Virus record (IMG/VR): IMGVR_UViG_3300042890_002687
Location: 1 to 38,812 of that record
Length of the DNA: 38,812 nucleotides
Source: a virus
Reading direction: 5' to 3' (one strand)
Shown here: one piece after another, positions 1-37,663 of the stretch
How positions within the stretch are numbered: the first letter of the stretch is position 1
How the letters are laid out: each line of letters begins with the position of its first letter
Notes under the pieces: generated by a model
What the model was told of the DNA's origin: nothing
What the model saw: the letters and a program-made list of their open reading frames with translations, nothing else
Database searches by the model: none
Program-made: the position numbers and the translations under genes

Positions 1-493
1 CTAACCCTAAAAAATTTAATTTTTCGATTTGATTAGTATTTAGTATACTAGAAATAGTTGTTTGATTTATTAATAATGGTTTGATTAAATCACCTTTTAT
101 TATAAATTTTCTTTGCCAAGTATCATGTTTATATAATTTAATTAAATTTTCTATTTTACATGATAATTCATTATTAAAGTCATTAAATATTAAAAATAAT
201 TTTTCTTCTTCTGTGGAACCTAATAGTATTTTTTGTACATGATTTCTATTTTTTTTACATTCTTCAAAACAATTACTTGGTTCGATACATATACCTCTCC
301 AATTTAAATTTTTCTCTAAAAAATATGTCATAGAATTGGTAATACCGTCACTAGCTCCGGCTTCCAAAAAATTTAAATTCGGTTCATCTCCGTATATAAA
401 ATATACAAACTTATCTTCCATTGTTTTATTAGAATAAAATTGAGTATCTTTATTCTTTTCATTAAATTCTAAAATTATATTATCTATATTCAT
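1..493 (-). CDS. FkbM-family methyltransferase, partial (C-terminus outside window)
   Basis: The reading frame starts at the ATG at 493 and stays open for 164 codons to the window edge, so the C-terminus is missing. Residues about 41-70 read FLEAGASDGITNS, then a Trp-Arg-Gly stretch and IEPS. This matches the SAM-binding start of FkbM-type O-methyltransferases (family pattern: VEIGANDG, then IEP). The ATG overlaps the TGA of the radical SAM gene upstream (ATGA), so the two are probably translationally coupled. In this family the usual substrate is a hydroxyl on a sugar or secondary metabolite. The neighbours (glycosyltransferase, radical SAM) make a glycan substrate likely. The exact acceptor cannot be told. 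Confidence 0.75.
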   Translation of the reverse strand, partial: MNIDNIILEFNEKNKDTQFYSNKTMEDKFVYFIYGDEPNLNFLEAGASDGITNSMTYFLEKNLNWRGICIEPSNCFEECKKNRNHVQKILLGSTEEEKLFLIFNDFNNELSCKIENLIKLYKHDTWQRKFIIKGDLIKPLLINQTTISSILNTNQIEKLNFLGL

Positions 494-16758: not shown

Positions 16759-17727
16759 ATGTATATGACAAAAATAGTTTATATTACAGGATGTTTAGGT
16801 TTCATAGGATCATATGTTACTAGGGAATGTTTAAACAAAGGATGGTATGTAAGAGGAATAGATAAAATCACTTATGCCGCACAACCAAATTTGCTCGAAG
16901 AATTTAATAAATACGAAAAATTTAGTTTTGAACAAAAAGATATATGTGATTTAGACAGATTAATTGAATGTGATTATTTTATTAATACAGCTGCAGAGTC
17001 TCATGTTGATAATTCTATAAGACACAGTGAAGAATTTTTACATTCAAATATTAATGGTGTATATAACATTTTGGAATTATTGAAACAACATAGCAAAAAA
17101 GAAGGTGGTATTTGTCCTGTATTATTACACTTTAGCACAGATGAAGTATATGGTGATATAGACATAGGAGAACACATTGAAACTGACATACTAAAACCTA
17201 GCAATCCATATTCCGCTACAAAAGCAGCCGCTGATCAATTAATTTTAGCTTGGTCAAGAACTTACAATATTCCTTATGTAATAGTAAGACCTACAAATAA
17301 TTATGGTATTGGACAATATGTTGAAAAATTAATACCAAAAACATGTAAATTCCTAACTATAGGAAGAAAGATTCCATTGCATAATGATGGTACTCCCGTG
17401 AGAAATTGGCTTCATGCAAATGATACTGCAAAAGGTATAATAAAAATCATTGAATCCGAAATTAAAAATGAAATTTTTAATATTGCAGGAGGATTTGAAC
17501 AATCTAATATAATTACAGTAGAAAAAATAATTTCAAATTATATAGGTCATTTATCCGACAATTATAAAGAAAAATATTTGGATTTTTCTTTCCAAAGACC
17601 AGGACAAGATGTTAGATATGCATTAAATGATAATAAATTAAGATCTCTTGGATGGAAACCGGAAGTTAATTTTGATGATGTTATTGGTAAAATTGTAGAG
17701 TATTACAAGAAAAATTTTATATGGTAA
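16759..17727 (+). CDS. NDP-glucose 4,6-dehydratase-like SDR (RmlB family)
   Basis: 322 aa. Extended SDR with GCLGFIGSYV (NAD-binding, residues 11-20), DKITYA, AAESHVDNSI, FSTDEVYGD (catalytic Thr-Asp-Glu), YSATKAAAD (catalytic Tyr-x3-Lys) and VRPTNNYG, all characteristic of RmlB. The enzyme makes NDP-4-keto-6-deoxyglucose, the substrate class of the DdhC-like gene just upstream. The family likeness is to dTDP-specific enzymes, but the pairing with DdhC would suggest CDP. A second ATG six bases in (16765) gives the more usual N-terminus MTKIVYITG and may be the real start. Confidence 0.9.
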   Translation: MYMTKIVYITGCLGFIGSYVTRECLNKGWYVRGIDKITYAAQPNLLEEFNKYEKFSFEQKDICDLDRLIECDYFINTAAESHVDNSIRHSEEFLHSNINGVYNILELLKQHSKKEGGICPVLLHFSTDEVYGDIDIGEHIETDILKPSNPYSATKAAADQLILAWSRTYNIPYVIVRPTNNYGIGQYVEKLIPKTCKFLTIGRKIPLHNDGTPVRNWLHANDTAKGIIKIIESEIKNEIFNIAGGFEQSNIITVEKIISNYIGHLSDNYKEKYLDFSFQRPGQDVRYALNDNKLRSLGWKPEVNFDDVIGKIVEYYKKNFIW

Positions 17728-19814: not shown

Positions 19815-20724
19815 AATTACATGTCATTTAATGCCTTGGGAATTAGATTATGCAATATTGTCTTTTACCCAATTAAAGAAATCCAAATATCATTTGAGTA
19901 ATGATGATACTGTATATGTAGATGTTACATTAAATCTATCAAGTTATCTAATTGATTGGGAATCTACTAAAATCCCAAAAGATTTCTTTATAGATAAGTT
20001 TAAATCATTACAGCCGTTATTAAACGAGTATAAATGTAATTTTAAAATTTATGATGGTAATGAATTGTACGGCGTACTTAATACAATGTTAGAGTCTACG
20101 GAATGTCATATTGATTATTATATGGTATTAAATTCTGATATGTACTTTACAGAACATTTATTGTCTATACTCGTACAGTCATCTAAAATTATAGATAATG
20201 AATTTTTTATAATATCTCCTCAAATTCCAAAATTGTGGGATGATACTTGGGATGTAATATCTAATTCAAATTATAATCATATTTCATACAAAGATTATAA
20301 TAAAATTGATGTATATGATGTTCGTAATTATATGAAAGATAACGATCTTGAAATCGAATTATGTCCTATAAATACATTTAAATTTGCTGGTTGGATGGAT
20401 TTATATAATAAAGATACATGGGAAAATTTTATTATACAAAAAGGATGGAAAGGATATGGTGGTTGTGATTTCTATGCAATGATATTATCAAATTTTGCAA
20501 AGAATAAAGGAGCGAACATTCAACAATATATAATAAAAAATCAGATTACTACTGAATATTGTTATGGTTCGATGAACAATACTGGTTATACCAGTTATTA
20601 CAAAAAATTGATAAAATTAAATGACATTCCAAATCAAAGAAAAGACTTTGATTTAAAAATGAATGGATATATAAATGTCGGAATACAAAATTTAATAGAT
20701 AAAAAAATAATCAAAACTTTATGA
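19804..20724 (+). CDS. Putative GT-A glycosyltransferase
   Basis: 306 aa. YYMVLNSDMYFTEHLL near residue 110 looks like the DXD-containing strand of a GT-A enzyme, and FKFAGWMDLYNKDTWE with GWKGYGGCDFYAM resembles the acceptor-side region of such proteins. No membrane segment is visible. It overlaps both neighbours (11 bp before, 4 bp after, ATGA), so it is part of the same coupled run. The exact GT family is not clear. Confidence 0.65.
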   Translation: MNYKITCHLMPWELDYAILSFTQLKKSKYHLSNDDTVYVDVTLNLSSYLIDWESTKIPKDFFIDKFKSLQPLLNEYKCNFKIYDGNELYGVLNTMLESTECHIDYYMVLNSDMYFTEHLLSILVQSSKIIDNEFFIISPQIPKLWDDTWDVISNSNYNHISYKDYNKIDVYDVRNYMKDNDLEIELCPINTFKFAGWMDLYNKDTWENFIIQKGWKGYGGCDFYAMILSNFAKNKGANIQQYIIKNQITTEYCYGSMNNTGYTSYYKKLIKLNDIPNQRKDFDLKMNGYINVGIQNLIDKKIIKTL

Positions 20725-21596
20725 AAATATTTTCAAATTTTAGACCAGATACATGTCATACTTATGATGAGTTTAAAAAAGTATGTAAAGATAAACCCAT
20801 TACTTTATTTTATGATTACGTACCAAAAAGTCTTGATCAGTTAAATATAAATCCATATAATTTTATAATATTAGTTGAACCGAATGAATTTTTCGGTCTT
20901 CAATCTTGGGTTTTGCAAAACAGTCATTTATTTACAGGAATTATAACATGGAATGATACTCTATTTAAAGACTGTTCTAATGCAATATTCTTCCATTATA
21001 TTGGAGATGGTGGCGCTGGTGATATCAATCACAACTATTTAGAAGATTTTAATGATAAATATCCAACTAAAAAGTTTGAAGTAAGTTTCTTGTGTGGTGC
21101 TAAAAGATTAGTAGAAGGACATAAATTTAGACAAGAAATTTATAAAATAGAAGACAAAATTACAATTCCTAAAAAATGGTTTTATACATTAAAAGACTTT
21201 GACGTTGAAAACTTTAATAAAGGTGGTATTGGTAGACCTGATGATATTTGGGTACAAAAACAAATATGTTATCAAGAATCAATGTTTCATATCGGAGTAG
21301 AAAATGTAAAATACAACAATTGGTGTACTGAAAAAATCTGTGACGCTTTTGCAACTAAAACTGTTCCTATTTATTGGGGATGTCCAAATTTAGAAGAACT
21401 TGGATATGATGAACGAGGTGTAATTAGATTCAATTCAATTGATGAATTGGTGTCAAAAGTAAACAATTTAACATCTGATGACTATTATAGTAGATTGCCA
21501 TACATTGAACATAACTATAAAATGATTAAAAATTTTAGATTTAAAGATGTTATTGCCAGATTGTTTAAAGATTTTATCTCCGAAAATAATATATGA
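20721..21596 (+). CDS. GT10 fucosyltransferase-like glycosyltransferase
   Basis: 291 aa. FHIGVENVKYNNWCTEKICD, followed by AFATKTVPIYWGCPNLEE, is the donor-site motif of alpha-1,3/4-fucosyltransferases (family pattern: F-ENS-, then TEK and VPV-WG). KFEVSFLCGAKRLVEGHKFR fits the upstream arm. GT10 enzymes use GDP-fucose or close analogues. A ColD-like enzyme in the same region could provide a 3-deoxy-fucose (colitose-like) donor. Both ends overlap neighbours by ATGA. Confidence 0.88.
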   Translation: MKIFSNFRPDTCHTYDEFKKVCKDKPITLFYDYVPKSLDQLNINPYNFIILVEPNEFFGLQSWVLQNSHLFTGIITWNDTLFKDCSNAIFFHYIGDGGAGDINHNYLEDFNDKYPTKKFEVSFLCGAKRLVEGHKFRQEIYKIEDKITIPKKWFYTLKDFDVENFNKGGIGRPDDIWVQKQICYQESMFHIGVENVKYNNWCTEKICDAFATKTVPIYWGCPNLEELGYDERGVIRFNSIDELVSKVNNLTSDDYYSRLPYIEHNYKMIKNFRFKDVIARLFKDFISENNI

Positions 21597-22099
21597 ATTA
21601 TATAATTGTGTCGGCATTAGAACAAGAATTTCCGTTTGATAAGGAATTAAATGTATTATATACAGGAGTTGGTAAAATAAATGCTAGTATATCGTTATTA
21701 ACTTATTTATATAACAACCCACATATTGATACTGTTATTAATGTTGGAACTGCGGCTGGAATAATAGAAAAAAAGAATCAAGTAGTAAGTTGTGGAACGT
21801 TTATAGAAGGAGAACTTGACTATCCAAGTTATGTATTAGAACCTATAATTATAAATCCAAATTTATATACACTCGCCACATTTGATTCATTTCAAACATC
21901 AGTTCCAAAACGTAAATGTGACTTTGTTGATATGGAAGGATATGCATTTGCGAAAATATGTAAAATAAAGAAAATTAATTTCTTCTGTTATAAATATATA
22001 TCTGATATAATCGGAGAACAAAATCAAGAAGAAACATGGCTTTATAATTATCAAAATGGCCGAACTCTTCTTAAAGAAATGGTTATTAAACATATATGA
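21593..22099 (+). CDS. MTA/SAH nucleosidase-like protein (short nucleoside phosphorylase family)
   Basis: 168 aa versus about 230 in MTA/SAH nucleosidases. The N-terminus YIIVSALEQEF aligns with the GAMEEE start holding the catalytic Glu. VINVGTAAGI is the nucleoside-site glycine loop. VDMEGYAFA (Glu115) and KYISD (Asp138) match the substrate-binding Met-Glu and the catalytic Ser-Asp. About 60 residues of the middle are missing. The family splits S-adenosylhomocysteine, methylthioadenosine and 5'-deoxyadenosine, products of methyltransferases and radical SAM enzymes, both of which are encoded close by. Overlaps both neighbours by 4 bp. Confidence 0.8.
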   Translation: MNYIIVSALEQEFPFDKELNVLYTGVGKINASISLLTYLYNNPHIDTVINVGTAAGIIEKKNQVVSCGTFIEGELDYPSYVLEPIIINPNLYTLATFDSFQTSVPKRKCDFVDMEGYAFAKICKIKKINFFCYKYISDIIGEQNQEETWLYNYQNGRTLLKEMVIKHI

Positions 22100-23040
22100 A
22101 AAAAATACTAATTACTGGTGGTGCTGGATACTTGGGATCTGTTTTGACTGAAACTCTATTGAAAGAAGGTCATTCCGTAACTATCCTTGATAATTTATCC
22201 TATAATCAATTATCATTAGGTGGGTTCTGTTCAAATGAAAATTTCAATTTCGTACTAGGAGATGTAAGAAATGAATCTTTATTGGAAAAATTGGTAAATG
22301 AAAACGAAGTAATTATACCACTAGCTGCAATTGTGGGAATGCCTGCGTGTAAATCAAATCCTCAAGCTGCGATTGATATAAATCTAAATCAAATTAAAAA
22401 TGTAATCAAATTTTCAAAATCTGATTCTAATAAAAAAATCATTCTTCCAAATACAAACAGTCAATATGGATCATCCACCGAGATTATTACAGAAAACAGT
22501 CCATTTAAACCATTATCATTATATGCAGAAACTAAATGTGATGCTGAAAAAACACTTTTAGACTCAGGAAATGGTATTGCATTACGTCTAGCAACTGTAT
22601 TTGGTATGTCATATAGAATGAGAATGGATCTTCTGGTTAATGATTTGACATATAAAGCATTAACCGATGGTTATTTAGTATTATTTGAATCCCATTTTAT
22701 TCGTAATTATGTTCATGTTCGTGATGTAGCAAATACATTCTCTTTCATGATTCGTAATTACAATCAGTGTAATCAATCTGCATATAATGTTGGATTGACA
22801 TCAGCAAATTGTAATAAACTTGAATTGGCAGAAACTATTAAGAAGTATGTGCCAGAATTAGTAATAGTTCAAAATGAATTTAAGAAAGATTTTGATCAAA
22901 GAAATTATAGAGTTTCAAATCAAAAATTAGAATCATTAGGATGGACTGCTAATTATTCATTGGATCACGGTATTCAAGAATTATTAAAAGGATATAAAAT
23001 GATTGTAAAATTCAAAAATAAAGATTTTACCAATCTATAA
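22096..23040 (+). CDS. NAD-dependent nucleotide-sugar epimerase/dehydratase (extended SDR)
   Basis: 314 aa. ILITGGAGYLGSVLTETLL is the NAD site, IIPLAAIVGMPACK is the conserved region after the fourth strand, and YAETKCDAE carries the catalytic Tyr-x3-Lys. NYVHVRDVANTF and YNVG near the end are typical of sugar SDRs. The SQYGSS segment in front of the Tyr gives the Ser. The product is not predictable; it is the third SDR in the cluster. Starts in an ATGA overlap with the nucleosidase gene. Confidence 0.85.
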   Translation: MKKILITGGAGYLGSVLTETLLKEGHSVTILDNLSYNQLSLGGFCSNENFNFVLGDVRNESLLEKLVNENEVIIPLAAIVGMPACKSNPQAAIDINLNQIKNVIKFSKSDSNKKIILPNTNSQYGSSTEIITENSPFKPLSLYAETKCDAEKTLLDSGNGIALRLATVFGMSYRMRMDLLVNDLTYKALTDGYLVLFESHFIRNYVHVRDVANTFSFMIRNYNQCNQSAYNVGLTSANCNKLELAETIKKYVPELVIVQNEFKKDFDQRNYRVSNQKLESLGWTANYSLDHGIQELLKGYKMIVKFKNKDFTNL

Positions 23041-23065: not shown

Positions 23066-24031
23066 ATGGATAAAAATTTATTAGTTGTATACAATATTTG
23101 TGGGATTAAACACGATAACATTGAAATGTGGGTTAATCATCTACAAGATATTGTAGATCAAACGTATAACAACTTTACTGTTGCAATATCAGGATGCAAG
23201 ATATCAGAGTCATCTAAGAAAACACTTATCGAATTTAAAAATAAATATAAAAATGTAGTTTTTAATTTCACTGATGAAACTTTACCAGTAAATGTTACTT
23301 TTAATCATACCACGCAGATTTGTTCATCTGAATTTGGTACATTTGACGGATATATTTATGTAGCATCAGATGTAAAATTCGGAACAGATTATGATGTATT
23401 AACCAAACTCAGTCATTTACATTTTAGTACTAATAGTGCCATGACATACGCATTAGTAGATAATGATCATGGATTGGATGGGTGGTACAATGAATGTTGG
23501 GATGAATTGAATCAATTATTAGAAAAAGATCATTTTTGTATTAATATCGGAAAAACAGGAAACATGCATGTAATATTATTTGACAAAGAATTGTATGTCA
23601 AATATGATACTAAAATAATTCCTGATATTTTTGCATCTCATTGTACAGAAACAACTTATAGTTATTTAGCCGCATCCATTAACAAAAAGATTACAGTTCA
23701 CAATAAAAGTGTAATGTTAAAACATATTGGATTTGCAGACGGACATAGTGTTGGTTTCATGGATGAAATAGGATGGAATCATAAATTAGCATGGAAACAC
23801 TTTTTCAAATGTAAATCAACAGCAGAAGAAAGATTGTTGTCAAATGAAGCTAAAGAAGTAGGATTTGGTTATGTTGATTTTTATGGAGGATTTAAACACG
23901 ATTCAAATTTATATGATGAAAATGAAAATCATATACAACCAGAAAAACTGTTCAATTTTCTAAAAAAGAGTGTATATCTTTCAAACGAAGAATTCAATTA
24001 TAGTGAGATTAAATATAGTTTTATAAAATAA
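23066..24031 (+). CDS. Putative GT2-like glycosyltransferase
   Basis: 321 aa. The start (LLVVYNICGIKHDNIEMWVNHL, then DQTYNNFTVAISGCKIS) resembles the first Rossmann strand and helix of GT2 enzymes. FDGYIYVASDVKFGTDYDV near residue 95 would hold a DXD-like site (S-D-V). A conserved-looking HCTETTYSYLAASINKKI lies in the acceptor half. It has no membrane segment. There is a 25-bp gap before it and 2 bp before the B12-type radical SAM gene. Family call moderate. Confidence 0.65.
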   Translation: MDKNLLVVYNICGIKHDNIEMWVNHLQDIVDQTYNNFTVAISGCKISESSKKTLIEFKNKYKNVVFNFTDETLPVNVTFNHTTQICSSEFGTFDGYIYVASDVKFGTDYDVLTKLSHLHFSTNSAMTYALVDNDHGLDGWYNECWDELNQLLEKDHFCINIGKTGNMHVILFDKELYVKYDTKIIPDIFASHCTETTYSYLAASINKKITVHNKSVMLKHIGFADGHSVGFMDEIGWNHKLAWKHFFKCKSTAEERLLSNEAKEVGFGYVDFYGGFKHDSNLYDENENHIQPEKLFNFLKKSVYLSNEEFNYSEIKYSFIK

Positions 24032-24033
24032 AT

Positions 24034-25572
24034 ATGAATGTATTATTTATCAATCCGGGAAACAAAGAAACAATTTATCAAGGATTATCAACAACTTATT
24101 CTGCAATTGAACCCCCAACATGGGCATTACTATTAGCAGAATCTTGTCGTTCTATAGGGAAAACAGTTTCTATCTTGGATATTAACGCAGAAAATCTATC
24201 AGTAGAACAATCGTTTGAACGTATTAAGGATATCAATCCAAAACTCATATGTTTTGTAGTATATGGTCAAAATGTAAATGCTGGAACAGTAAGTATGAGT
24301 GGTGCAGTTGCACTTTCCAATTATATTAAACAACAAAATTGTAATATTCCTATTGCTTTCGTTGGTTCTTATGTCCAAGCATTACCAAAAAAGGCATTGT
24401 TTGAAGAAAAATCAATTGATATTGTATTCACAAATGAAGGTGTTTACGCATTAAGAAATCTAATATCACAAGATTATATTGATGTAAATAATCTAGATCA
24501 CATCAAAGGAATTGCATGGAGAAAAAATGGATTCCCAACATTAAATGCACCTGAAAGTGTTGTTCCACAAGATAGATTGGATATTGATTTACCAGGCTAT
24601 GCATGGGATTTGTTACCATATAAAGAAAAACCATTGGATTTATACCGTTCTCCAATGTGGCATGCAGAATACGATCATAATAAACGTACACCTTATGCTG
24701 CAATTCAAACATCATTGGGATGTCGATTTGGATGTGATTTTTGTATGATTAATATTGTTAACAGAAATGATAATGATGAAATCGGCGTTGCATCGAATTA
24801 TAGTTCTATGAGATATTGGTCTCCAGAATTCATTATTAATGAATTTGACAAGTTAGTTAAAATGGGTGTAGAAACCATTCGTATTGTAGATGAAATGTTT
24901 CTATTGAATAAAAAATATTATGTTCCTCTATGTACTATGTTGAAAGAAAGAGGATATGGTAAAAATTTAAGAATGTGGGCATATTCTCGTATTGATACTG
25001 TATCAAATCCAGAACTACTAAAGTTGGTAAGAGAAGCTGGTATTAAATGGCTTTGTTTAGGAATCGAAAGTGGAGATAGAAATGTAAGATTGGAAGTGTC
25101 CAAAGGTAAATTTCAAGACGTAGATATTCAAAAAGTAATTCAATACATTCACGATTCGGATATAGAAATCATGGCAAATTATATATTTGGATTACCTGGT
25201 GACACTTTTGATAGTATGCAAAAAACATTGAATCTTTCTAAAGAATTATGCACATTTGGTTGGAATGCATATGCTGCAATGGCATTACCAGGAAGTAAGT
25301 TGTATAAAGATGCAATTGATAAAGGTCGTCCAATACCAAAAACATATGAAGGATTCTCATTTCATTCATATGAAACATTACCTTTGCCAACAGATGCATT
25401 GACCTCTGCACAAATTATAAAATTTAGAGATAATGCGTTTGAAGAATATCATTCATATCCACCATTTTTAGAAAAAGTTGAACGAAAATATGGTGCGACA
25501 GCGGTAAATAATATTAAAGAAATGTTAAAAATTAAGTTAAAAAGAAAGATTGTAGAAGAAGAAATAAAATAA
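24034..25572 (+). CDS. Radical SAM protein with N-terminal B12-binding-type domain
   Basis: 512 aa. Residues 1-165 look like the cobalamin-binding Rossmann domain of class B radical SAM enzymes (NVLFINPG, then PPTWALLLAESCRSIGKTVSI, then LICFVVYGQN). Residues 230-237 (CRFGCDFC) are the 4Fe-4S motif CxxxCxxC. IRIVDEMFLLNKKYY, LRMWAYSRID and WLCLGIESGD are typical later barrel strands. Such enzymes methylate unactivated carbons or rearrange skeletons, often in sugar or lipid pathways. The classical B12-ligand motif DxHxxG is not seen, as in several members. It lies between a glycosyltransferase and the second ThDP pair. Confidence 0.88.
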   Translation: MNVLFINPGNKETIYQGLSTTYSAIEPPTWALLLAESCRSIGKTVSILDINAENLSVEQSFERIKDINPKLICFVVYGQNVNAGTVSMSGAVALSNYIKQQNCNIPIAFVGSYVQALPKKALFEEKSIDIVFTNEGVYALRNLISQDYIDVNNLDHIKGIAWRKNGFPTLNAPESVVPQDRLDIDLPGYAWDLLPYKEKPLDLYRSPMWHAEYDHNKRTPYAAIQTSLGCRFGCDFCMINIVNRNDNDEIGVASNYSSMRYWSPEFIINEFDKLVKMGVETIRIVDEMFLLNKKYYVPLCTMLKERGYGKNLRMWAYSRIDTVSNPELLKLVREAGIKWLCLGIESGDRNVRLEVSKGKFQDVDIQKVIQYIHDSDIEIMANYIFGLPGDTFDSMQKTLNLSKELCTFGWNAYAAMALPGSKLYKDAIDKGRPIPKTYEGFSFHSYETLPLPTDALTSAQIIKFRDNAFEEYHSYPPFLEKVERKYGATAVNNIKEMLKIKLKRKIVEEEIK

Positions 25573-25607
25573 ACATATAAAAGTAAAACTACATAAGTAT
25601 ATTGACT

Positions 25608-26216
25608 ATGATAAAAAATTATACTCCATCAGAATTAATATCATTTGAAGAAGACATTGCGGAACAGTTTAATAATTCAAAAATTAAAGCGCCTATTCAT
25701 TTGTATAACGGTAACGAATCACAAATGATTCAAATATTTGATGATATTAAAGAAGAAGATTGGGTTTTTTGTACATGGAGATCACATTATCAATGTTTGT
25801 TAAAGGGAGTACCACCAGAAACCGTTAAATCCGATATTCTCAAGGGCAAATCAATTACTTTGTGTTATCCAGAATATAAAGTATATTCATCTGCAATTGT
25901 AACGGGAAATATTCCTATTGCAACTGGAGTAGCATTAGACATTAAAAGAAAAGGTTCCAATGAAAAGGTTTGGTGTTTCGTTGGTGACATGACATCTGAA
26001 ACGGGTACCTTTTTTGAAAACTGGAAATATTCAGTGAATCATGACTTACCTATCACTTATATTATAGAAAATAATGGAAAATCTGTTTGTACAGATACAT
26101 TGAAAGTGTGGAATTGTGAAGAATTATTCTTTGCAAAAGAAACTCGTAAAATTAAATATTACAAATACGAAACAAAGTATCCTCACGCTGGCGCAGGCAA
26201 AAGAATTCAATTTTAA
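25608..26216 (+). CDS. ThDP-dependent E1 alpha-like subunit (copy 2)
   Basis: 202 aa, clearly paralogous to the gene at 17731 (by eye roughly half of residues identical): FEEDI near the start, GNES, DWVFCTWRSHYQ, YPEYK, then FVGDMTSETGTFFENWKYS with YIIENN as the ThDP/Mg motif, and the end YPHAGAGKRIQF. The ATG at 25608 is preferred over a TTG two codons upstream because MIKNYTPSEL aligns with the start of copy 1. It is followed after 4 bp by the matching beta gene, in the same order as copy 1. No E2/E3 genes accompany it. Confidence 0.82.
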   Translation: MIKNYTPSELISFEEDIAEQFNNSKIKAPIHLYNGNESQMIQIFDDIKEEDWVFCTWRSHYQCLLKGVPPETVKSDILKGKSITLCYPEYKVYSSAIVTGNIPIATGVALDIKRKGSNEKVWCFVGDMTSETGTFFENWKYSVNHDLPITYIIENNGKSVCTDTLKVWNCEELFFAKETRKIKYYKYETKYPHAGAGKRIQF

Positions 26217-26220
26217 TATT

Positions 26221-26757
26221 ATGAAATATTTCGACGAACTTAAAAAATCAATGGATTGGTTGGCAACTAAAGAAAACACTTTGTTTTTAGGTCAGGCAGT
26301 AGAATATGCCGGTACTGGTATGACAAATACATTAAAAGATGTAGACAGATCTAAGCTATTAGAAATGCCTGTCAATGAAGATATGCAAATGGGTATGTCA
26401 ATTGGAATGGCATTAAATGGCACAGTTCCTATTTCTATATATCCTAGATGGAATTTTCTATTACTAGCCGCAAATCAATTGGTAAATCATTTGGATAAAA
26501 TGAAAATTATGTCTGATGGAGGATATAAACCAAAAGTAATTATTAGAACATCAATTGGTTCTCAACGTCCATTACACCCACAACATCAACATATCAGTGA
26601 TTTTTCAGGAGGATTTAAAGCAATGTGTGATACAGTTGATATCATTCGATTGGATGAACCACATCAAATTTTTGAATCATTCCAATATGCTTATGAACGA
26701 ACTGATAATAGATCTACTATCTTAGTTGAATGGGGTGATTATTACGGAGAAAAATAA
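26221..26757 (+). CDS. ThDP-dependent E1 beta-like pyrimidine-domain subunit (copy 2)
   Basis: 178 aa, the same length as copy 1 at 18370. MPVNEDMQMGMSIGMALNG contains the ThDP-activating Glu; YPRWNFLLLAANQLVNHLDK and RTSIGSQRPLHPQHQH follow in the same order. The start at 26221 was chosen over an in-frame ATG 105 bp upstream because that lies inside the alpha gene and MKYFDELKKSMD matches MKYLNQIIKSMD of copy 1. The C-terminal transketolase domain is absent. It is followed 1 bp later by the kinase gene. Confidence 0.82.
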   Translation: MKYFDELKKSMDWLATKENTLFLGQAVEYAGTGMTNTLKDVDRSKLLEMPVNEDMQMGMSIGMALNGTVPISIYPRWNFLLLAANQLVNHLDKMKIMSDGGYKPKVIIRTSIGSQRPLHPQHQHISDFSGGFKAMCDTVDIIRLDEPHQIFESFQYAYERTDNRSTILVEWGDYYGEK

Positions 26758-26758
26758 C

Positions 26759-27721
26759 ATGACTATCGTTAAATCGCCATTTAGAATATCATTATTTGGA
26801 GGATCTACCGATTATAAAGGATTTTATGAAAAATACGGGTCATTTATAATAGGTACAACTATTAATAAATATTGTTATCTTTCTATGAGGTATCGACCAT
26901 CAATACTCTCAAAACAATATTTATGCACATATTCAAAGTATGAATTAGTGGATACTATAGAACAAATACAAAATCCACTAATTAGAGCAACATTAAAATA
27001 CTATAATGTAGATAAACCGATTGAATTTTTTTCATATTCAGACATTCCAGCAAGAACCGGACTAGGTGGTTCATCAACATATTGTGTAGGAATGTCATAT
27101 TTAATCCACAAACTCCAAAACAAACAAATAAATAAAAAAGAGATAATCAAATCTGCGATTAAAATAGAAAGAGAAATTCTCAATGAAAGTGGTGGCATTC
27201 AAGATCAAATTTGGCCTTTTGCAAAAGGTTTAAACTCCATAGAAATTGATAAAAACGGAGAATTTAGTATAAAACCATTACCATTAACAGAAGAATTTTT
27301 AGTAGAATTACAGAAATCATTTACACTAATATATACTGACGAACAACGAAATACAGATCAAATTGCTAAATCTCATGAAAATGATATAAACAATAAATTG
27401 AATATATTAGAATTAGCAAAAGAATCATACTCCGCATTCTTAAAAGAAGATATAAAATCAATAGGATGTTTGTTGTATCAAAGTTGGATCAATAAAGAAA
27501 AAATATCCCCATTAATTTCTAATAATAAAATAAAGCAAATAATCGATGATGTAATGTCAATGGGTGCATATGGTGCAAAATTATTAGGAAGCGGAGGATG
27601 TGGATTTGTGTTAGTTGTATCAGATCCTATTATAAAAACCAAAATACTTGAAAAATATAATGGTAATGTATTAGAATTCGATTTTGAAAAATCAGGAACA
27701 TCTGAAATTTTTTCTAGTTAA
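26759..27721 (+). CDS. GHMP-family sugar kinase (HddA-like)
   Basis: 320 aa, starting MTIVKSPFRISLFGGSTDY, the N-terminus of GHMP sugar-1-kinases. IPARTGLGGSSTYCVGM is the ATP-binding loop and AYGAKLLGSGGCGFVLVV the C-terminal GHMP motif. GGIQDQIWPFAKGLNSIEI matches the family's GxQDQ region with the catalytic Asp. HddA phosphorylates D-glycero-D-manno-heptose 7-phosphate at C1; related enzymes act on fucose or galactose. Together with the nucleotidyltransferase 3 bp downstream it could activate a sugar. No heptose isomerase (GmhA) or phosphatase (GmhB) is in the window, so the substrate is open. An upstream ATG at 26726 overlaps the E1 beta gene and is less likely. Confidence 0.85.
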   Translation: MTIVKSPFRISLFGGSTDYKGFYEKYGSFIIGTTINKYCYLSMRYRPSILSKQYLCTYSKYELVDTIEQIQNPLIRATLKYYNVDKPIEFFSYSDIPARTGLGGSSTYCVGMSYLIHKLQNKQINKKEIIKSAIKIEREILNESGGIQDQIWPFAKGLNSIEIDKNGEFSIKPLPLTEEFLVELQKSFTLIYTDEQRNTDQIAKSHENDINNKLNILELAKESYSAFLKEDIKSIGCLLYQSWINKEKISPLISNNKIKQIIDDVMSMGAYGAKLLGSGGCGFVLVVSDPIIKTKILEKYNGNVLEFDFEKSGTSEIFSS

Positions 27722-27724
27722 TAT

Positions 27725-28150
27725 ATGAAAATAGGAATAGTATCTGGGTATTTTAATCCCGTCCACTATGGACATATCGAATATATCAATTCTGCAAAAG
27801 AAAACTGTGATAAATTAATTGCAGTCATCAATAGTGATTACCAACGTGAATTAAAAGGAACAAAAGAATTCATGGACGAAAATCATAGATCTAAAATTAT
27901 ATTTAATTTGAAATCAGTTGATGATGTATTTATTTCTGTTGACAAAGACAAAACTCAATGTCAGACTCTTAGATACTTAAAAAATAAATATAAAGAAGAT
28001 CACTTGATATTTTTTAACAGTGGCGACAGAAAAGGTTCAAATTTAGTTACTGCAGAATCAGATGTATGTAAAGAAATTGGAATAGAAGAATCAATTCTTG
28101 AACTACCAAAAATATACTCATCAAGTGAACTATTGAAAAGTTATGAATAA
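27725..28150 (+). CDS. Small HxGH nucleotidyltransferase (cytidylyltransferase-like)
   Basis: 141 aa. NPVHYGHIEYI holds the HxGH motif (His14, His17) and IYSSSELL near the end is the ISSS/T-like phosphate site. The size fits glycerol-3-phosphate cytidylyltransferase (TagD) or the adenylyltransferase half of HldE, which transfer NMP to a sugar or polyol phosphate. It follows the HddA-like kinase by 3 bp and overlaps the ColD-like gene by 8 bp, so it probably loads the kinase product onto a nucleotide. Which nucleotide is used cannot be told. Confidence 0.85.
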   Translation: MKIGIVSGYFNPVHYGHIEYINSAKENCDKLIAVINSDYQRELKGTKEFMDENHRSKIIFNLKSVDDVFISVDKDKTQCQTLRYLKNKYKEDHLIFFNSGDRKGSNLVTAESDVCKEIGIEESILELPKIYSSSELLKSYE

Positions 28151-29318
28151 TTTTTACCTACCATTAATGGAAGACAATATTGACAGAGAAGATGTCAATA
28201 CACTAATAAACTTTCTAAATCAAACACCAATTCCAAAACTAACCAATGGACCAAAAGTAGTTGAATTTGAAAATGCGTGGGGTCAATGGTTGGGTACTAA
28301 GTATAATTTGATGGTTAATAGTGGTGCTAGTGCAAATGAATTGACAATACTTGCATTAAATGAACTGTACGAAGACGGAGAAGTGATTTTACCACCCCTA
28401 ACATGGATATCAGATGTTTCGTCAGTAATATTTAGCGAATTTACACCCGTATTTTGTGATATCAATCTAAAAAATCTATCTTTTGATTTGGAAAAACTTA
28501 AGAAACTAATTACACCAAAAACAAGAGCAATATTTTTGACCCATGTTTTGGGAATTAATGGTCTCACAGACGAACTATTGAACATTTGTAAAGAAAATAA
28601 TATTCATTTGATTGAAGATGTATGTGAGTCACATGGCACTACATTCAAAGGTAAAAAAGTAGGATCATATGGATTTGTAAGTAATTTTAGTTTTTACTTT
28701 GCACATCACATGTCCACCATTGAAGGTGGTATGATTTGTACAAATGATGAAAGATTTTATCAAATTTGTAGAGCACTAAGATCACATGGCATGATTAGAG
28801 AAATGACTAATGAATCCATGAGAAATGAAATTATTAATAAAAATCCAGATCTCAACAAAGATTTTATTTTCCTGCGTCCATCTCATAATTTTAGAAGTAC
28901 CGAACTTAATGCTGTATTAGGATTGTCTCAATTGAAAAAATTAGACAAAAATAACAAAAATAGAATAGACAATTATAACTATTTTATGAGTAAGTTGGAT
29001 TCTTCCAAGTATGTCACTGATATTGAATTGGATGGACAGTGTAATTATGCATTTACAGTAATCTTAAAAGATCCTTCTTTTGTTACTCAACTAAATGTAG
29101 AATTGAGATTAAAAGAAGCCCGTATTGAATTTAGAAGAGGAATGTCTGGTGGTGGAAATCAACTTCGTCAACCATACATCAAAAAACATTTCAATATCAA
29201 CTATGATGATTTTAAAGTAGTAGATCACGTTCATAATTTTAGCTGGTATATTGGAAACTATCCTGGACTACAAAGAGAAAAAATTGATACTCTATTAAAG
29301 GTATTAAATAATATATGA
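28143..29318 (+). CDS. ColD-like 3-dehydratase of the DegT fold (PLP Lys replaced by His)
   Basis: 391 aa, very near the length of ColD (388). Fold and order fit DegT/DnrJ/EryC1/StrS proteins: NSGASANELTILAL (cofactor phosphate loop), PPLTWISDVSS, LIEDVCESHG (Asp on the pyridine nitrogen), but at the lysine site the sequence is FYFAHHMSTIEGGM, giving His188. ColD carries a catalytic His at this site and removes C3-OH from GDP-4-keto-6-deoxymannose with PMP and glutamate, without an Fe-S cluster; no E1-type cysteine cluster is seen here either. So a dehydratase rather than an aminotransferase is predicted. It sits between the nucleotidyltransferase and an RmlC-like gene. Confidence 0.85.
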   Translation: MNNFYLPLMEDNIDREDVNTLINFLNQTPIPKLTNGPKVVEFENAWGQWLGTKYNLMVNSGASANELTILALNELYEDGEVILPPLTWISDVSSVIFSEFTPVFCDINLKNLSFDLEKLKKLITPKTRAIFLTHVLGINGLTDELLNICKENNIHLIEDVCESHGTTFKGKKVGSYGFVSNFSFYFAHHMSTIEGGMICTNDERFYQICRALRSHGMIREMTNESMRNEIINKNPDLNKDFIFLRPSHNFRSTELNAVLGLSQLKKLDKNNKNRIDNYNYFMSKLDSSKYVTDIELDGQCNYAFTVILKDPSFVTQLNVELRLKEARIEFRRGMSGGGNQLRQPYIKKHFNINYDDFKVVDHVHNFSWYIGNYPGLQREKIDTLLKVLNNI

Positions 29319-29830
29319 ATTCTAAAATAAAAGAATGTAGTACTACTATTAATGATCTAATAGTAATTCAACCTGATTCATTTTACGATCATAGAGGTGA
29401 AAACTTTGAAACATACAATGAAGAACATTACTCTAAAATGTTCAAATCGGATCTGAAATTTGTTATTGATTCATTTTCTAACTCAACCAAAAATGTTTTA
29501 AGAGGATTTCATGGAGATACCGACAATTGGAAATTAATTGACGTATTAAAAGGAAATGTGTATTTTGTAGTCATTGATGTACGATTAAATTCATCTACAT
29601 ATAAAAATATACAGTATTTCCAGTTAAATGATAAAAATAGATATCAAGTTCTTGTTCCTGCGGGATGTGTTAATGCACATTTAGTTACATCCGACGAATG
29701 TCTATTTCATTACAAACTGACAAAAAGTTATGTATCAATAGAAAAACAAATTCACATTAAGTGGAACGATCCAGAATATAATGTATTTTGGCCAATTAAA
29801 GACCCAATTCTTTCAAAAAGAGATAAATAA
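29315..29830 (+). CDS. RmlC-like cupin (NDP-4-keto-sugar 3,5-epimerase family)
   Basis: 171 aa, a usual RmlC length. DHRGENFETYNE at the start, DSFSNSTKNVLRGFHGD (catalytic His66), KLIDVLKGNVYFVVIDVR (Lys73), VLVPAGCVNAHLV and the end WNDPEYNVFWP with ILSKRD match the family order. RmlC epimerises C3 and C5 of dTDP-4-keto-6-deoxyglucose; relatives act on other keto sugars at one centre. Here it follows a ColD-like enzyme that removes C3-OH, so C5 epimerisation alone would make chemical sense. ATGA overlap with the gene before. Confidence 0.87.
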   Translation: MNSKIKECSTTINDLIVIQPDSFYDHRGENFETYNEEHYSKMFKSDLKFVIDSFSNSTKNVLRGFHGDTDNWKLIDVLKGNVYFVVIDVRLNSSTYKNIQYFQLNDKNRYQVLVPAGCVNAHLVTSDECLFHYKLTKSYVSIEKQIHIKWNDPEYNVFWPIKDPILSKRDK

Positions 29831-29838
29831 AAAAAGTT

Positions 29839-31455
29839 ATGTCAAACGAAACATTTAATTTTAGAAAAGATAGATTTCAAAAAATAATTGATAAAGACTG
29901 TGTTGCAATTGATATAGGTGCTCACATAGGAGAATTTTCAAAACTATTTGCCAAGTGTGCAAAAAAAGTAATTGCGTTTGAACCAAATAACTTTGTATTT
30001 CAAAGTCTAGAATCAAATCTAAAAAAAGAAAACTATCTAAATGTAGACATATATAACTTAGCATGTACCAAAGAAAACAAAAAGTACATGTTCAACTATA
30101 GCGATCCTAAAATACATAAAGACGGTTCCAATGGTGGATTTTTATCAAATTTAGAAAATAAAGGATTTTGCAAACATCATTCATATGAACAAGAAGTAAA
30201 CGGTGTAAATCTTTTAGATTTTATTGAACAGAAATATAGCACTGATATTGATAATATTAAATTTATTAAAATTGATGCGGAAGGATATGACAAAGAAATA
30301 CTAAAAACCATAATTCCTTTAATCAATAAAAATAAACCTGTTCTAATGGTAGAAGCATTCAAGTTTTTAACAGAACTGGAACTTGAAGATTATTTTAATG
30401 TTATAGATTCATTAGGATATAAAATCTATGACATATCTCCATTAGACAATATTGTTGATTGTGCCGGACCATTGGATCAAGATGAATTTAAGTATTTTAC
30501 ATATAACGTATGTGACAATGGTAATTTCTTGTGTGTACATAAAGATGATATTAAAAAATATAATCTACCAGATAAAGTAAAGGGTAAAACATGCGTTGTT
30601 GTTTTCGGTAGAAACGATGGTTATAAAGAAAAAGAACGTTTTAAAATTCATATCACCAAAATGTTAGAAACATTTGATGAAGTGATTTATGTCGATTGGA
30701 ATTCTGAAAAAAGAAGTTTCTTGTATGAGATTATCGACGAAATTCCTAAAACAGGAAGATTAAAACATTTTGTAATTGAACCAAAAATTGCTAAAATTTT
30801 AGAGAATTACGATCCAAATGCACAAGCATGTTCTACAGTATTCTCATTTAATATTGGTATGCGAAGAACAGATGCGGAATATATAGTTCTATCTACTACC
30901 GATATTATTCCTCCTACAAAAGAAATTCTACAAGAATTTATTAATAAAACCAATAAAAATACAATGTATGTTCTTAGTAGACGAGATATCGAATATAAAG
31001 ACGTTATTGCTAATAAAGACAATTTAAATGATTACATTGACCATTTAAACATTACAAGTAAACCAAGATATTTTCCAGCAAGAGTTACGCCTAACGATAA
31101 CTATAGTCTGTTTAATTGTTGTGGTGACTTTCAATTTGCTACAAAAAATATCTGGTTTAAAGTTAGGGGATACGAAGAACAAATGAAATATGCGTGCTTT
31201 GTAGATACTAATGTTCAAAAGAAATCAGTATTATATGGATTTCAATTAAAAGACATATATGATGTTCCTTTATATCATATGAGCCATACTGGTATGTCTA
31301 ATGACGGAAGTTCTCCAAGCAAAAAGTTTTATAACAACGCAATGGATTGGGTAGAATATTTTGGTACTTATACAGATCACGGACATATCATGATATCAAA
31401 AAATGACGAATGTTGGGGATTTTCAGAAACAGAAATTGAATACGAAATAATATGA
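29839..31455 (+). CDS. Fusion of FkbM-type methyltransferase and GT-A-like glycosyltransferase
   Basis: 538 aa. Residues about 14-190 form an FkbM methyltransferase (CVAIDIGAHIGEFSKLFA, KVIAFEPNN, then IKFIKIDAEGYDKEIL). Residues about 248-520 form a second domain (CVVVFGRNDGYKEKERFKIH, DEVIYVDWNSEKRS, AEYIVLSTTDIIPP) with the look of a GT-A nucleotide-binding region. The junction near residue 245 is basic and short. Such a fusion could add a sugar and methylate it, or cap a chain by methylation. Overlaps the LhgO-like gene by ATGA. Confidence 0.8.
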   Translation: MSNETFNFRKDRFQKIIDKDCVAIDIGAHIGEFSKLFAKCAKKVIAFEPNNFVFQSLESNLKKENYLNVDIYNLACTKENKKYMFNYSDPKIHKDGSNGGFLSNLENKGFCKHHSYEQEVNGVNLLDFIEQKYSTDIDNIKFIKIDAEGYDKEILKTIIPLINKNKPVLMVEAFKFLTELELEDYFNVIDSLGYKIYDISPLDNIVDCAGPLDQDEFKYFTYNVCDNGNFLCVHKDDIKKYNLPDKVKGKTCVVVFGRNDGYKEKERFKIHITKMLETFDEVIYVDWNSEKRSFLYEIIDEIPKTGRLKHFVIEPKIAKILENYDPNAQACSTVFSFNIGMRRTDAEYIVLSTTDIIPPTKEILQEFINKTNKNTMYVLSRRDIEYKDVIANKDNLNDYIDHLNITSKPRYFPARVTPNDNYSLFNCCGDFQFATKNIWFKVRGYEEQMKYACFVDTNVQKKSVLYGFQLKDIYDVPLYHMSHTGMSNDGSSPSKKFYNNAMDWVEYFGTYTDHGHIMISKNDECWGFSETEIEYEII

Positions 31456-32621
31456 AAAATGTAGTTATCGTAGGTGGAGGAATTGTTGGATTAGCCGTTG
31501 CATATAAATTATCATCCAATAAAAATTTAAATATTACAGTACTAGAAAAAGAAAACGATGTAGGACAACACCAAAGTACCCATAATAGCGGAGTATTACA
31601 CTGTGGTTTGTATTATAAACCTGGATCATTAAAAGCACAATTATCTGTAAACGGTATAAAACAAATGACTGATTTCTGCATCAAACATAATATTCCACAT
31701 GAAATATGCGGAAAATTAGTAGTATCTACAAATCAAGAAGAATCTATAAAATTAAATGAATTGTTTGACCGTGGAACAAAAAATGGATTAAAAAATCTTA
31801 GAAAATTAAACAAACAACAAATGCTTGAAATTGAACCAAATGTAGGAGGAATAGAAGCTCTACACGTTCCACAAGAAGGAATTGTTGATTATAAAAAAGT
31901 AATACAAAAACTGTCAGAACTAATTACAAATAACGGACATACAATAAAATTAAACTCCAAAGTAACTAATATTACTAAAGATAAAGTATTTGTCAAAAAT
32001 GAACAATTTAATTATGACATTTTAATTAATTGTACAGGATTACATTCTGATAAGATCTCAAAATTTACTACCAAAATTAAATCTAAAATTATTCCATTTA
32101 GAGGAGAATATTATAAATTAAAATCAGAATCTAGTCATTTAGTTAATAATCTAATTTATCCAGTACCAGATCCTAAATATCCATTTTTAGGAGTACATTT
32201 TACCAGATTAATTAACGGTGGAATTGAAGCCGGACCAAATGCAGTATTGGCATTCTCAAGAGAAGGATATTCTCTATTTAATATAAATCTACTTGATATA
32301 TTCGATTATATTACATTCAAAGGACTTTGGAAATTTATTCTTAATCACAAATATATGTGTTTTAAAGAATTATACCAATCAATTAGTAAAAAACAATTTA
32401 CTAAAGCATTACAAAAATTAGTTCCAAATATTAAAGAAAGTGACTTGATCAGGGGAGATGCAGGTGTAAGAGCACAAGCAATGTCAAATACAGGAGAATT
32501 AATTCAAGATTTTGAAATAGTTATTAAAGATAATGTATGTAATGTTGTAAACTGTCCAAGTCCTGCTGCAACATCGTCTTTATCAATTGCAGATTATATT
32601 ATCAAACAAATTAAATTATGA
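31452..32621 (+). CDS. FAD-dependent oxidoreductase, L-2-hydroxyglutarate oxidase-like (LhgO)
   Basis: 389 aa, close to LhgO (about 400). VVIVGGGIVGLAVAYKL is the FAD Rossmann motif; STHNSGVLHCGLYYKPGSLK (residues 42-61) is highly characteristic of LhgO. VPQEGIVDYKKV, FLGVHFTRLINGGIEAGPNA and RGDAGVRAQA also fit. LhgO oxidises L-2-hydroxyglutarate to 2-oxoglutarate and passes electrons to quinone. In this cluster it may act on that substrate, linking to glutamate/2-oxoglutarate used by PMP or ThDP enzymes, or on another hydroxy acid. Such a gene is unexpected in a phage. Overlaps both neighbours by ATGA. Confidence 0.87.
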   Translation: MKNVVIVGGGIVGLAVAYKLSSNKNLNITVLEKENDVGQHQSTHNSGVLHCGLYYKPGSLKAQLSVNGIKQMTDFCIKHNIPHEICGKLVVSTNQEESIKLNELFDRGTKNGLKNLRKLNKQQMLEIEPNVGGIEALHVPQEGIVDYKKVIQKLSELITNNGHTIKLNSKVTNITKDKVFVKNEQFNYDILINCTGLHSDKISKFTTKIKSKIIPFRGEYYKLKSESSHLVNNLIYPVPDPKYPFLGVHFTRLINGGIEAGPNAVLAFSREGYSLFNINLLDIFDYITFKGLWKFILNHKYMCFKELYQSISKKQFTKALQKLVPNIKESDLIRGDAGVRAQAMSNTGELIQDFEIVIKDNVCNVVNCPSPAATSSLSIADYIIKQIKL

Positions 32622-35126: not shown

Positions 35127-36041
35127 TTATAATTTAAATTCTTTTTCAAACCGTTCAATAGCATAATCTTTAGCCTTGAATTCAAATTCATAATCAACAT
35201 TATCCATGTCAACATATTCTTCAGGAATACTGCGAACATAATCACCATGCGCTCGTGGATTTTTGTTGGTAGTATCATTGTCACTAAAATGAAACAATGG
35301 ACGATAATTACCCCATGTAGACATTGCCAATTTCATTGCATCTTTAGCTGTCAATTTGCCAGCGTTACAACGAAAATGAAGATTGTCGTAAGTAATAGGA
35401 ATACCAGTATTTGAATAAATCAAATCATACAATTCTTCTACTTTCCAACTGTTGGGTTTGTCTTCATTTTCAAGAACAAGACGAGACTTAACATTAACAG
35501 GAAAATCATTGTATACATCAATAAACCGTTTGGCAATATCTTTGGTATCACCTTTGTAACAATTCATATGAATATTCATTGGAGCTTCGTATGATTGAGG
35601 TAAACCAAACAAATCCATAATTGTAGCATGATTTTTTAGTTCAACAATGGATTTTTCTACTACAGATTTCGTAGCACTTGCAGGTACAACAAATTGATCG
35701 GGATGTGTACTACATCGTAAATTATTCTTTTTGATAATATCTGCACCACGCTTGAATTCGGCATAAATACGATCTTTATCAGGAAGAACATCAAATGATA
35801 GATTTGCTTCTGGCAAAGTAGCCAGTGGAAACAAGTCACTACTAATTCTATAATTCCAACCTTTACTTGCACAAAATGCAAATGTATTCACCGCAACATG
35901 TACATTGTTAAGCGTTCGTTGTGAAATAGTAGATAAAGCATTTTTGCGTTCCAATGTCAAGAACCTAGTCTTGGTCATGGTATTAGCTTTATAACCTTTT
36001 TCTTGAAGTTGAAGAGAAATACAACACAATGATTTTTTCAT
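35127..36041 (-). CDS. uvdE: UV-damage endonuclease UvdE
   Basis: 304 aa, the usual length. UVDE nicks DNA 5' of UV photoproducts. Motifs visible: NYRISSDLFPLATL, HPDQFVVPAS, IHMNCYKGD, LVLENED (metal-binding Glu), TYDNLHFRCN, LFHFSDND and AHGDYV, all part of the TIM-barrel metal site. It has its own promoter ending 7 bp before ATG. The upstream 126-aa gene ends 40 bp away. UvdE is found in several T4-like marine phages as a repair gene. Confidence 0.93.
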   Translation of the reverse strand: MKKSLCCISLQLQEKGYKANTMTKTRFLTLERKNALSTISQRTLNNVHVAVNTFAFCASKGWNYRISSDLFPLATLPEANLSFDVLPDKDRIYAEFKRGADIIKKNNLRCSTHPDQFVVPASATKSVVEKSIVELKNHATIMDLFGLPQSYEAPMNIHMNCYKGDTKDIAKRFIDVYNDFPVNVKSRLVLENEDKPNSWKVEELYDLIYSNTGIPITYDNLHFRCNAGKLTAKDAMKLAMSTWGNYRPLFHFSDNDTTNKNPRAHGDYVRSIPEEYVDMDNVDYEFEFKAKDYAIERFEKEFKL

Positions 36042-36481: not shown

Positions 36482-37663
36482 CTATCGTCCAACTTCATTA
36501 AAAAACTTTGATTTAGCTTCATCATATGTCATTCCCATCATTTTGTTATAATATAGAATGTCAGATTTAATATTACCCTCGCCATGAAGTTTTTTATATC
36601 TTTCTATAGCTTTTGGTTTCCACCAGTCCAAAACACCTTGTACATCCTTATTAAACAATTCCTTTAACTTCAAATCTTTTTCAGTTATCTTATTTTGTAA
36701 GAATTCTTTGGTGTTTTCATAAAAACAACTATAATATACTCCTCTTTCATATCCATGAGTATAATCACTTGATTTAATTCCTAGTGTCTGGAATATCATA
36801 TTAATAACCCTAGTCTTTGCACCAGTAACAGGTCCACTAACACCTTCTTTTTGGGTCATTGCTTTATTATACTGTTCTGTTCTATTATCTTTTATCCATT
36901 GATGCCATACTTCATATACACTATCATCTGGTTTAATCATCATCTTACCAGTACTTGACCCACACTTATGCCACCATTTAAGACTATTATACATACTATA
37001 ACTACCATACAATGATGTGGTAGTCATGCCAACCAATTCTTCATCATATAGTTTCTTCCAAATTTCTCTGGTTTTGGATGTAGTAATCAATGCAGCTACT
37101 AACTTACCACCCAAGAAATTATAACCAAATGGTTGAGTACTCATAATACAACTACCAATTGCACTATGTACCAATCGTTTATCCTTTAACTTATTATCAG
37201 CAGTCCATCCAATGTAATCGTCTCTATCAGTAATTACAATAACATCACTGGATATACTTACCGCACCCAAATATCGTGGATTATCCACATTACCATCAGT
37301 AATCAGCAATTTAATGAATCTACCTGGTGTTTGAGCATACTCCATAGTATGACAAAATAACCTCAACATCAACCAGTCGTGTTCATATGGACTTCCAGCA
37401 GTTACATGAACAATAGTTGGATTCAAATTTTCTAATTCTTTGATCGTCAAATCTATATTGGTAATATCAGTAGGAGTCCATATCTTAGCTTTAACTACAC
37501 CAGATTTATTTAAATAATCTTTATAAGTTTGTACCTCTACCCACTTCTTATAAAATGTCTGTTCTTCAGCAGACATACTCTTCAAATAATCAATGTTTTT
37601 GATAAACTTAGATTTCTCCAGTTCAAATTCAAACTCACCAGCATCAAAAAATTCGTTTCCCAT
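36482..37663 (-). CDS. DruA-like protein (DUF4338)
   Basis: 393 aa. RYLGAVSISSDVIVITDRDDYIGW, split here as LGAVSISSD and RDDYIGW (near residues 150-175), matches the LG-x5-S, RD-x2-IGW signature of the DUF4338/DruA family. QPFGYNFLGGKLVAALITTS and TTTSLYGSYSMYNSLKW continue the pattern seen in phage-encoded members. DruA is a component of the Druantia defence system, but its chemistry is not clear. Here the large DruE helicase and other Druantia partners are absent, so this is either an accessory phage version or a gene with another role. It starts opposite the divergent 77-aa gene. Confidence 0.68.
   Translation of the reverse strand: MGNEFFDAGEFEFELEKSKFIKNIDYLKSMSAEEQTFYKKWVEVQTYKDYLNKSGVVKAKIWTPTDITNIDLTIKELENLNPTIVHVTAGSPYEHDWLMLRLFCHTMEYAQTPGRFIKLLITDGNVDNPRYLGAVSISSDVIVITDRDDYIGWTADNKLKDKRLVHSAIGSCIMSTQPFGYNFLGGKLVAALITTSKTREIWKKLYDEELVGMTTTSLYGSYSMYNSLKWWHKCGSSTGKMMIKPDDSVYEVWHQWIKDNRTEQYNKAMTQKEGVSGPVTGAKTRVINMIFQTLGIKSSDYTHGYERGVYYSCFYENTKEFLQNKITEKDLKLKELFNKDVQGVLDWWKPKAIERYKKLHGEGNIKSDILYYNKMMGMTYDEAKSKFFNEVGR

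Follow-up and report, generated by a model that had tools for sequence, protein, structure and literature searches.

Enzymes that use SAM are inhibited by the by-products that they release. In the portions available, PMC8102628 reports that 5'-deoxyadenosine inhibits radical SAM enzymes and PMC10986504 that Pfs of E. coli acts on, and clears, SAH, MTA and 5'-deoxyadenosine, and the same portions of the two papers describe all three compounds as inhibitors of SAM enzymes and E. coli as dependent on one nucleosidase. Shortened members of the family occur as well, such as Chlamydia CT263, with solved chains of 187-195 residues, and PRK05634 (NF004168) and its relatives, found in SAR11, SAR86, Acinetobacter, Dehalococcoidia and cyanophage C48C1. 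At the level of the active site, we take Glu12 and Asp197 (E. coli numbering) to be catalytic, Met173-Glu174 to bind ribose and Phe151 to stack on adenine; PDB titles of Glu12Gln and Asp197Asn mutants are consistent with this numbering. We further assume that the loop at residues 106-116 (F105-P113) of MTAN is supplied by the partner subunit and walls or closes the 5'-alkylthio pocket.

The window analysed here, an IMG/VR virus record of 38,812 bases, carries a short ORF of this kind within a run of genes on the same strand. Its features are as follows:

490-1566, minus strand: radical SAM protein, SPASM/twitch type
16759-17727: GDP-mannose-dehydratase-like protein (anchor of the control loci)
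20721-21596, plus strand: glycosyltransferase family 10-like protein, directly upstream of the nucleosidase (PF00852, E 6e-6)
21593-21596, plus strand: ATGA overlap of 4 bp between the nucleosidase start and the stop of the upstream glycosyltransferase gene
21593-22099, plus strand: short MTAN-like adenine nucleosidase, 168 aa, ATG start (Pfam, NCBIfam, AlphaFold, structure alignment)
22096-22099, plus strand: ATGA overlap of 4 bp between the nucleosidase stop and the start of the downstream epimerase gene
22096-23040, plus strand: NAD-dependent epimerase/dehydratase, directly downstream of the nucleosidase (Pfam)
23066-24031, plus strand: conserved cluster gene with no Pfam match, not at the same position in some relatives
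24034-25572, plus strand: B12-binding-domain radical SAM protein (PF04055, E 3.9e-18; PF02310, E 6.7e-9)
25602-26216, plus strand: thiamine-diphosphate E1 alpha-like half (PF00676, E 1.6e-17)
26116-26757, plus strand: E1 beta-like (Transket_pyr) half (PF02779, E 3.5e-7; boundaries as the ORF caller lists them)
26726-27721, plus strand: GHMP sugar kinase, heptose-7-phosphate kinase-like
27725-28150, plus strand: sugar-phosphate nucleotidyltransferase
28143-29318, plus strand: DegT/RfbH-like PLP enzyme
29315-29830, plus strand: RmlC-like cupin
29839-31455, plus strand: FkbM methyltransferase domain protein (PF05050, E 7.6e-13)

The preliminary description had read the ORF at 21593-22099 as an MTA/SAH nucleosidase type, and both profile searches and structure prediction confirm it as a real, MTA/SAH-nucleosidase-like protein. 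Pfam PNP_UDP_1 (PF01048) places it in the superfamily at E 7.9e-9 and 35.7 bits, above the curated cut-off of 25.1, and the best NCBIfam match is the 185-aa model NF004168 'nucleosidase', which covers residues 3-166. Its scores stay below the cut-offs of the narrower classes: 55.8 bits against 129 for the PRK05634 (NF004168) equivalog, 30.8 against 73.8 for the MTAN equivalog TIGR01704, and 35.8 and 15.6 against 124.7 and 187.1 for futalosine hydrolase and HpnG, respectively. The AlphaFold model of the single chain is confident (pLDDT 95.3, pTM 0.90) and has the MTAN fold, with 166 of 168 residues aligned to S. aureus MTAN 3bl6 by VIA-align (Z 21.9, rmsd 1.7 A) and a Foldseek match to 4qez_A at E 2.8e-12. 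BFVD returned three matches at E <= 0.001, all of them giant-virus purine or nucleoside phosphorylases, and no PHROG matched. A scan for promoters and terminators gave no more than shuffled sequence would: 112 promoter-like sites where 113.9 were expected, and 4 terminators where 4.3 were. The superfamily is also that of the PNP-domain effectors of anti-phage systems, and a distant relative of the window protein weakly matches a PN-superfamily effector (E 0.009). However, the window protein itself matches no PADLOC family at E <= 0.01 and is a stand-alone single domain inside a glycan operon, so that a nucleosidase for defence or counter-defence is barely credible here.

Conservation of the active site was followed in two alignments, one of 139 distinct sequences including E. 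coli Mtn and one of 96 rows. The key residues first picked out by eye, namely Glu12 in ALEQEF, Met114-Glu115 in VDMEG and Ser137-Asp138 in YISD, all fall at their E. coli equivalents: E12, F100, M114-E115, S137 and D138 of the window align with E12, F151, M173-E174, S196 and D197. Residues were counted in 94 rows (7 window-clade, 15 second-arrangement, 27 other viral and 45 bacterial; locus L016 was left out because its ORF is broken). E12, F151, M173, E174 and D197 are identical in 94 of 94, the window among them, and the S196 position is Ser or Thr in every row. The earlier figure of about 60 missing residues holds against E. coli Mtn (232 aa) but is misleading as a sign of damage. The gaps lie at about E. 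coli 20-40, 106-116, 120-133, 160-167 and the C-terminus, and all but 106-116 are common to most or all short relatives, so that the shortening is mostly normal for a common subfamily of short proteins from marine bacteria and phages. Only the loop at 106-116 (about 11 residues) is lost specifically in the window's clade; its P113 is missing from all 7 distinct proteins of that clade, the window's own included, but stands in 14 of 15 rows of the second arrangement, 24 of 27 from other viruses and 43 of 45 from bacteria. The preliminary description had proposed structure prediction to see whether the shortened fold keeps its active site: the MTAN fold is confident and the catalytic residues are conserved in the alignment, but the partner-subunit loop of MTAN is missing. 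Since that loop walls the 5' pocket in MTAN, the pocket of the window clade may be more open. Loss of the loop is a property of the clade and no proof of lost activity. The confident fold, and the similar length of seven distinct proteins of the clade, rule out a truncation artefact.

The gene is also under visible purifying selection. Between the window and six clade members dN is 0.27-0.54 and dS, near saturation, 0.76-1.67, and with dN below dS in every pair a pseudogene is ruled out. The nearest orthologue among the matches listed, at 9995-10491 of L016 (best-segment identity 61%), is interrupted by frameshifts, which reflect either a pseudogene or a sequencing error; the neighbouring cluster genes read open, and L016, L170 and L253 lie on one contig. 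The missing loop raises another explanation, namely that the fold has been kept for some other nucleoside or 5'-substituted adenosine, in agreement with the absence of P113 and neighbouring loop residues in 7/7 window-clade proteins and the presence of P113 in most others. We regard this as improbable, given that nucleosidases of the second arrangement keep the loop yet accompany the same radical SAM protein, and that the residues contacting adenine and ribose are unchanged.

The nucleosidase has no close homologue in named phages, where tblastn found no match at E 1e-5 and, at E 10, seven weak records. The clearest relative there is CDS0109 of cyanophage C48C1, near ribonucleotide reductase genes; the adjacent-numbered CDS0110 of this phage (L003 8455-8949, 164-aa translation) is annotated 'NAD synthetase' and presumably is, by its motif, more like a GIY-YIG type nuclease. 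Scans with the single protein returned only one 100% identical contig or nothing. A search built on a six-sequence alignment reached much further, with relatives encoded by at least 538 of 599 matching viral stretches and at least 451 of 589 matching bacterial stretches; the 80 bacterial loci kept are largely from marine lineages (SAR11, SAR86, SAR116, Chloroflexi) and Acinetobacter.

At the level of gene context, loci L009-L014 and L016 share an RmlC-like cupin, the nucleosidase (broken in L016), the epimerase (81-85% identical to 22096-23040), the B12 radical SAM protein and the halves of the thiamine-diphosphate (TPP) enzyme. In L009, L010 and L018 the gene immediately before the nucleosidase is a cupin homologue, and in L018 the nucleosidase stands directly between the cupin and the radical SAM gene. 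Because of this shared neighbourhood the search was repeated from the radical SAM side. There, 258 of 277 matching viral stretches encode relatives, of which the best 80 were kept. Among these best 80 of 258 B12-radical-SAM loci, 28 contain a nucleosidase homologue, a proportion of 19/45 after de-duplication at 90% radical SAM identity and of 17/30 among de-duplicated loci whose flanks are long enough and whose radical SAM identity is 60% or more. Counted among these 17 are the broken L170 and also L169, in which the genes of the cluster match those of the window at 100% identity. The gene keeps its place in the operon in two orders, either upstream of the epimerase, as in the window, or downstream after DegT and the cupin, often before FkbM. 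It is absent from 13 of the 30 clusters within the DNA examined and from 22 of 22 loci whose radical SAM protein is only 48-53% identical, and is therefore not obligatory. Such optional presence (17/30) agrees more with a helper role than with a step of the pathway.

The control set comprised 80 phage glycan loci, with the window's GDP-mannose-dehydratase-like protein as anchor. A nucleosidase was found in three of them. In two, the locus itself includes a radical SAM gene; L253, the remaining one, shares its contig with L016 and L170, and these reveal a radical SAM gene beyond its flank. De-duplication left 61 control loci, and 58 after the three with a nucleosidase and a radical SAM gene (in the locus or on the contig) were set aside. 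The nucleosidase is thus present in 17/30 B12-radical-SAM clusters versus 0/58 control loci (Fisher 2e-10, a value that is optimistic given kinship), which supports by comparative gene context the link to SAM-consuming glycan enzymes proposed at the outset. For FkbM, 12 of the 30 clusters have both an FkbM relative and the nucleosidase, 5 the nucleosidase only, none FkbM only and 13 neither (Fisher 8.7e-5, confounded by kinship). The best-supported partner is the B12-binding radical SAM protein at 24034-25572, with the single FkbM second.

Nucleosidases of the second arrangement (L171-L187 and others) have TTDYF where others have GDSF and one residue fewer in the QRDMD motif, and form a distinct lineage in the tree. 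From the tree, the two gene-order groups seemed likely to have been recruited separately; a single origin was, however, not rejected by the AU test (p 0.143), and we therefore make no claim of separate recruitment.

Several other genes of the window deserve mention. Two split thiamine-diphosphate E1 alpha/beta-like pairs lie in one glycan cluster, at 17731-18366/18370-18906 and at 25602-26216/26116-26757 (plus strand), and could possibly add two-carbon branches to sugars. At the end of the sugar cluster, 31452-32621 (plus strand) encodes a protein resembling L-2-hydroxyglutarate oxidase (NCBIfam score 499.6 bits, cut-off 299). On the minus strand, 35127-36041 encodes a UvdE-type UV endonuclease (E 4.3e-40) and 36482-37663 a DruA-like protein in a phage (Pfam DruA E 1.1e-21; PADLOC DruA E 5.7e-18); Druantia is a defence system.

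Turning to the SAM-dependent partners, the preliminary description counted two radical SAM proteins and two FkbM methyltransferases in the window. Profile search recovered both of the former, at 490-1566 (minus strand) and 24034-25572 (plus strand), but only one FkbM is detectable, at 29839-31455, by Pfam and by an FkbM HMM built from the cluster; a division of this protein into two FkbM units found no support, as its halves are unrelated. The radical SAM protein at 24034-25572 has 512 aa, with C230, C234 and C237 invariant in 42 aligned sequences, and its model (pLDDT 90.5) has AprD4 as best fold match, followed by TsrM, MgmA, CysS, OxsB and TokK; AprD4 and 9ccb are matched by sequence too. 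AprD4, a diol dehydratase of the radical SAM class, has a solved structure that includes its substrate, paromamine. In named phages the protein has no close relative, only one of 22% in Streptomyces phage SF3. AprD4-type and B12-methylase chemistry each release 5'-deoxyadenosine, and the usual B12 methylase type also SAH. We propose the protein at 24034-25572 as the main source of 5'-deoxyadenosine and FkbM 29839-31455 as a source of SAH; the SPASM/twitch protein at 490-1566 is possibly another source of 5'-deoxyadenosine.

A biosynthetic nucleosidase has also to be weighed. HpnG acts after HpnH, and MqnB after MqnE, to remove adenine from a 5'-deoxyadenosyl adduct. By analogy, the phage enzyme might strip adenine from an adduct made by the radical SAM protein and leave a ribosyl on a sugar or lipid. 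It shares its superfamily with the HpnG and futalosine hydrolase models, the B12 radical SAM protein resembles HpnJ in NCBIfam, although below cut-off, and the 5' pocket of the window clade may be open. Nonetheless, 13 of the 30 B12-radical-SAM clusters do without a nucleosidase, unlike a pathway step, and the nearest radical SAM folds are AprD4 and B12 methylases, so that we hold this role to be very improbable. Equally far-fetched is its extended form, in which the B12-radical SAM protein would adenosylate a sugar or lipid carrier; the nucleosidase, with a 5' pocket opened through the missing partner loop, would then clip the adenine to yield a C-linked ribosyl on a phage-directed glycan.

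The genomic context of the wider family is more varied. Among the neighbours of 25 viral nucleosidases outside B12 clusters, Radical_SAM is the commonest Pfam family (11 of 138 genes), and the CxxxCxxC motif likewise occurs in 11 of the neighbour proteins, confined to L055, L061 and L068 (two of them related), where a phage nucleosidase lies among SPASM-type radical SAM genes. On the phage contigs of L055 and L061, five or six radical SAM-like genes stand in a row in about 6 kb around the nucleosidase, and the L055 contig carries a T4-type Gp23 match. With the CxxxCxxC motif as the test in place of a family model, a radical SAM-like gene lies within 6 kb in 10 of 34 viral nucleosidase loci, which are hand-listed representatives skewed to the window's kin, versus 5 of 77 control loci (p 0.002); leaving out the window clade reduces this to 6/30 versus 5/77, which is not significant (p 0.07). 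The other 24 of the 34 viral loci are in replication, tail or other contexts, and the same motif test found no such gene within 6 kb of 80 bacterial relatives (0/80). The radical SAM link is thus strong for the B12 cluster and the SPASM arrays, and no rule for the family.

This variety bears on whether the enzyme serves instead a general clean-up of SAH, MTA and 5'-deoxyadenosine for the infected cell, in the SAM cycle and nucleotide salvage, its adjacency to radical SAM genes being a chance of operon history. Relatives are encoded by no fewer than 538 viral stretches, many in replication or structural contexts or beside RNR, the bacterial relatives have no radical SAM genes nearby, and the available parts of PMC7678222 describe the nucleosidase, SAM synthetase and methyltransferases of Baikal VP_139 as a SAM-cycle set. 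Yet a general role sits poorly with the strong B12 radical SAM co-occurrence and the absence of the nucleosidase from all 58 comparable loci lacking that radical SAM gene, with the two gene orders within one kind of cluster, and with the start and stop overlaps inside the operon, and we consider it doubtful.

We favour, with a probability of roughly 0.6, a phage-borne, shortened MTAN-like adenine nucleosidase that clears the 5'-deoxyadenosine and SAH arising from enzymes of the same cluster. Made within the sugar-nucleotide/glycan operon, and presumably dimeric, it would hydrolyse the adenine-ribose bond of 5'-deoxynucleosides. It would remove 5'-deoxyadenosine from the B12-binding radical SAM enzyme, and perhaps from the SPASM one, and SAH from FkbM, as well as from the B12 enzyme if this is a methylase. 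Low-turnover SAM enzymes would thereby be kept from stalling on their own by-products during infection, to the likely benefit of the phage. The step from E. coli Pfs to the phage protein is one of analogy. If correct, a phage with a B12-type radical SAM enzyme and a clean-up partner would be a virus that brings a maintenance enzyme together with a demanding one, and the pairing would point to a modified sugar as the thing to find. The window protein would also be of use as an MTAN-like scaffold of very small size and as a marker in the annotation of comparable phage clusters.

Compared with known systems, in Lake Baikal VP_139 a phage nucleosidase likewise accompanies radical SAM proteins and methyltransferases, a set which the available parts of PMC7678222 read as SAM cycle/PQQ in methylotroph phages, with no glycan cluster or B12 radical SAM pairing in those parts. 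A search of the open-licence PMC literature found no phage nucleosidase described as the partner of a glycan cluster with a B12 radical SAM protein; by inference, the two would be associated here. With MtnN/Pfs (EC 3.2.2.9) of E. coli and S. aureus the window protein shares its fold (166/168 residues, Z 21-22) and equivalents of Glu12, Phe151, Met173-Glu174, Ser196 and Asp197, but it is 64 residues shorter than the E. coli enzyme, lacks the partner-subunit 5'-pocket loop, is phage-borne and falls below the NCBIfam cut-offs. CT263, another shortened MTAN, reaches a Z of about 20 to the window model at only 18-19% identity. From the PRK05634 subfamily the window protein differs in lacking the QRDMD...GFxxGxTPF stretch, while the match is nearly full-length, with the same trimmed elements, K for R193 and W for F207.
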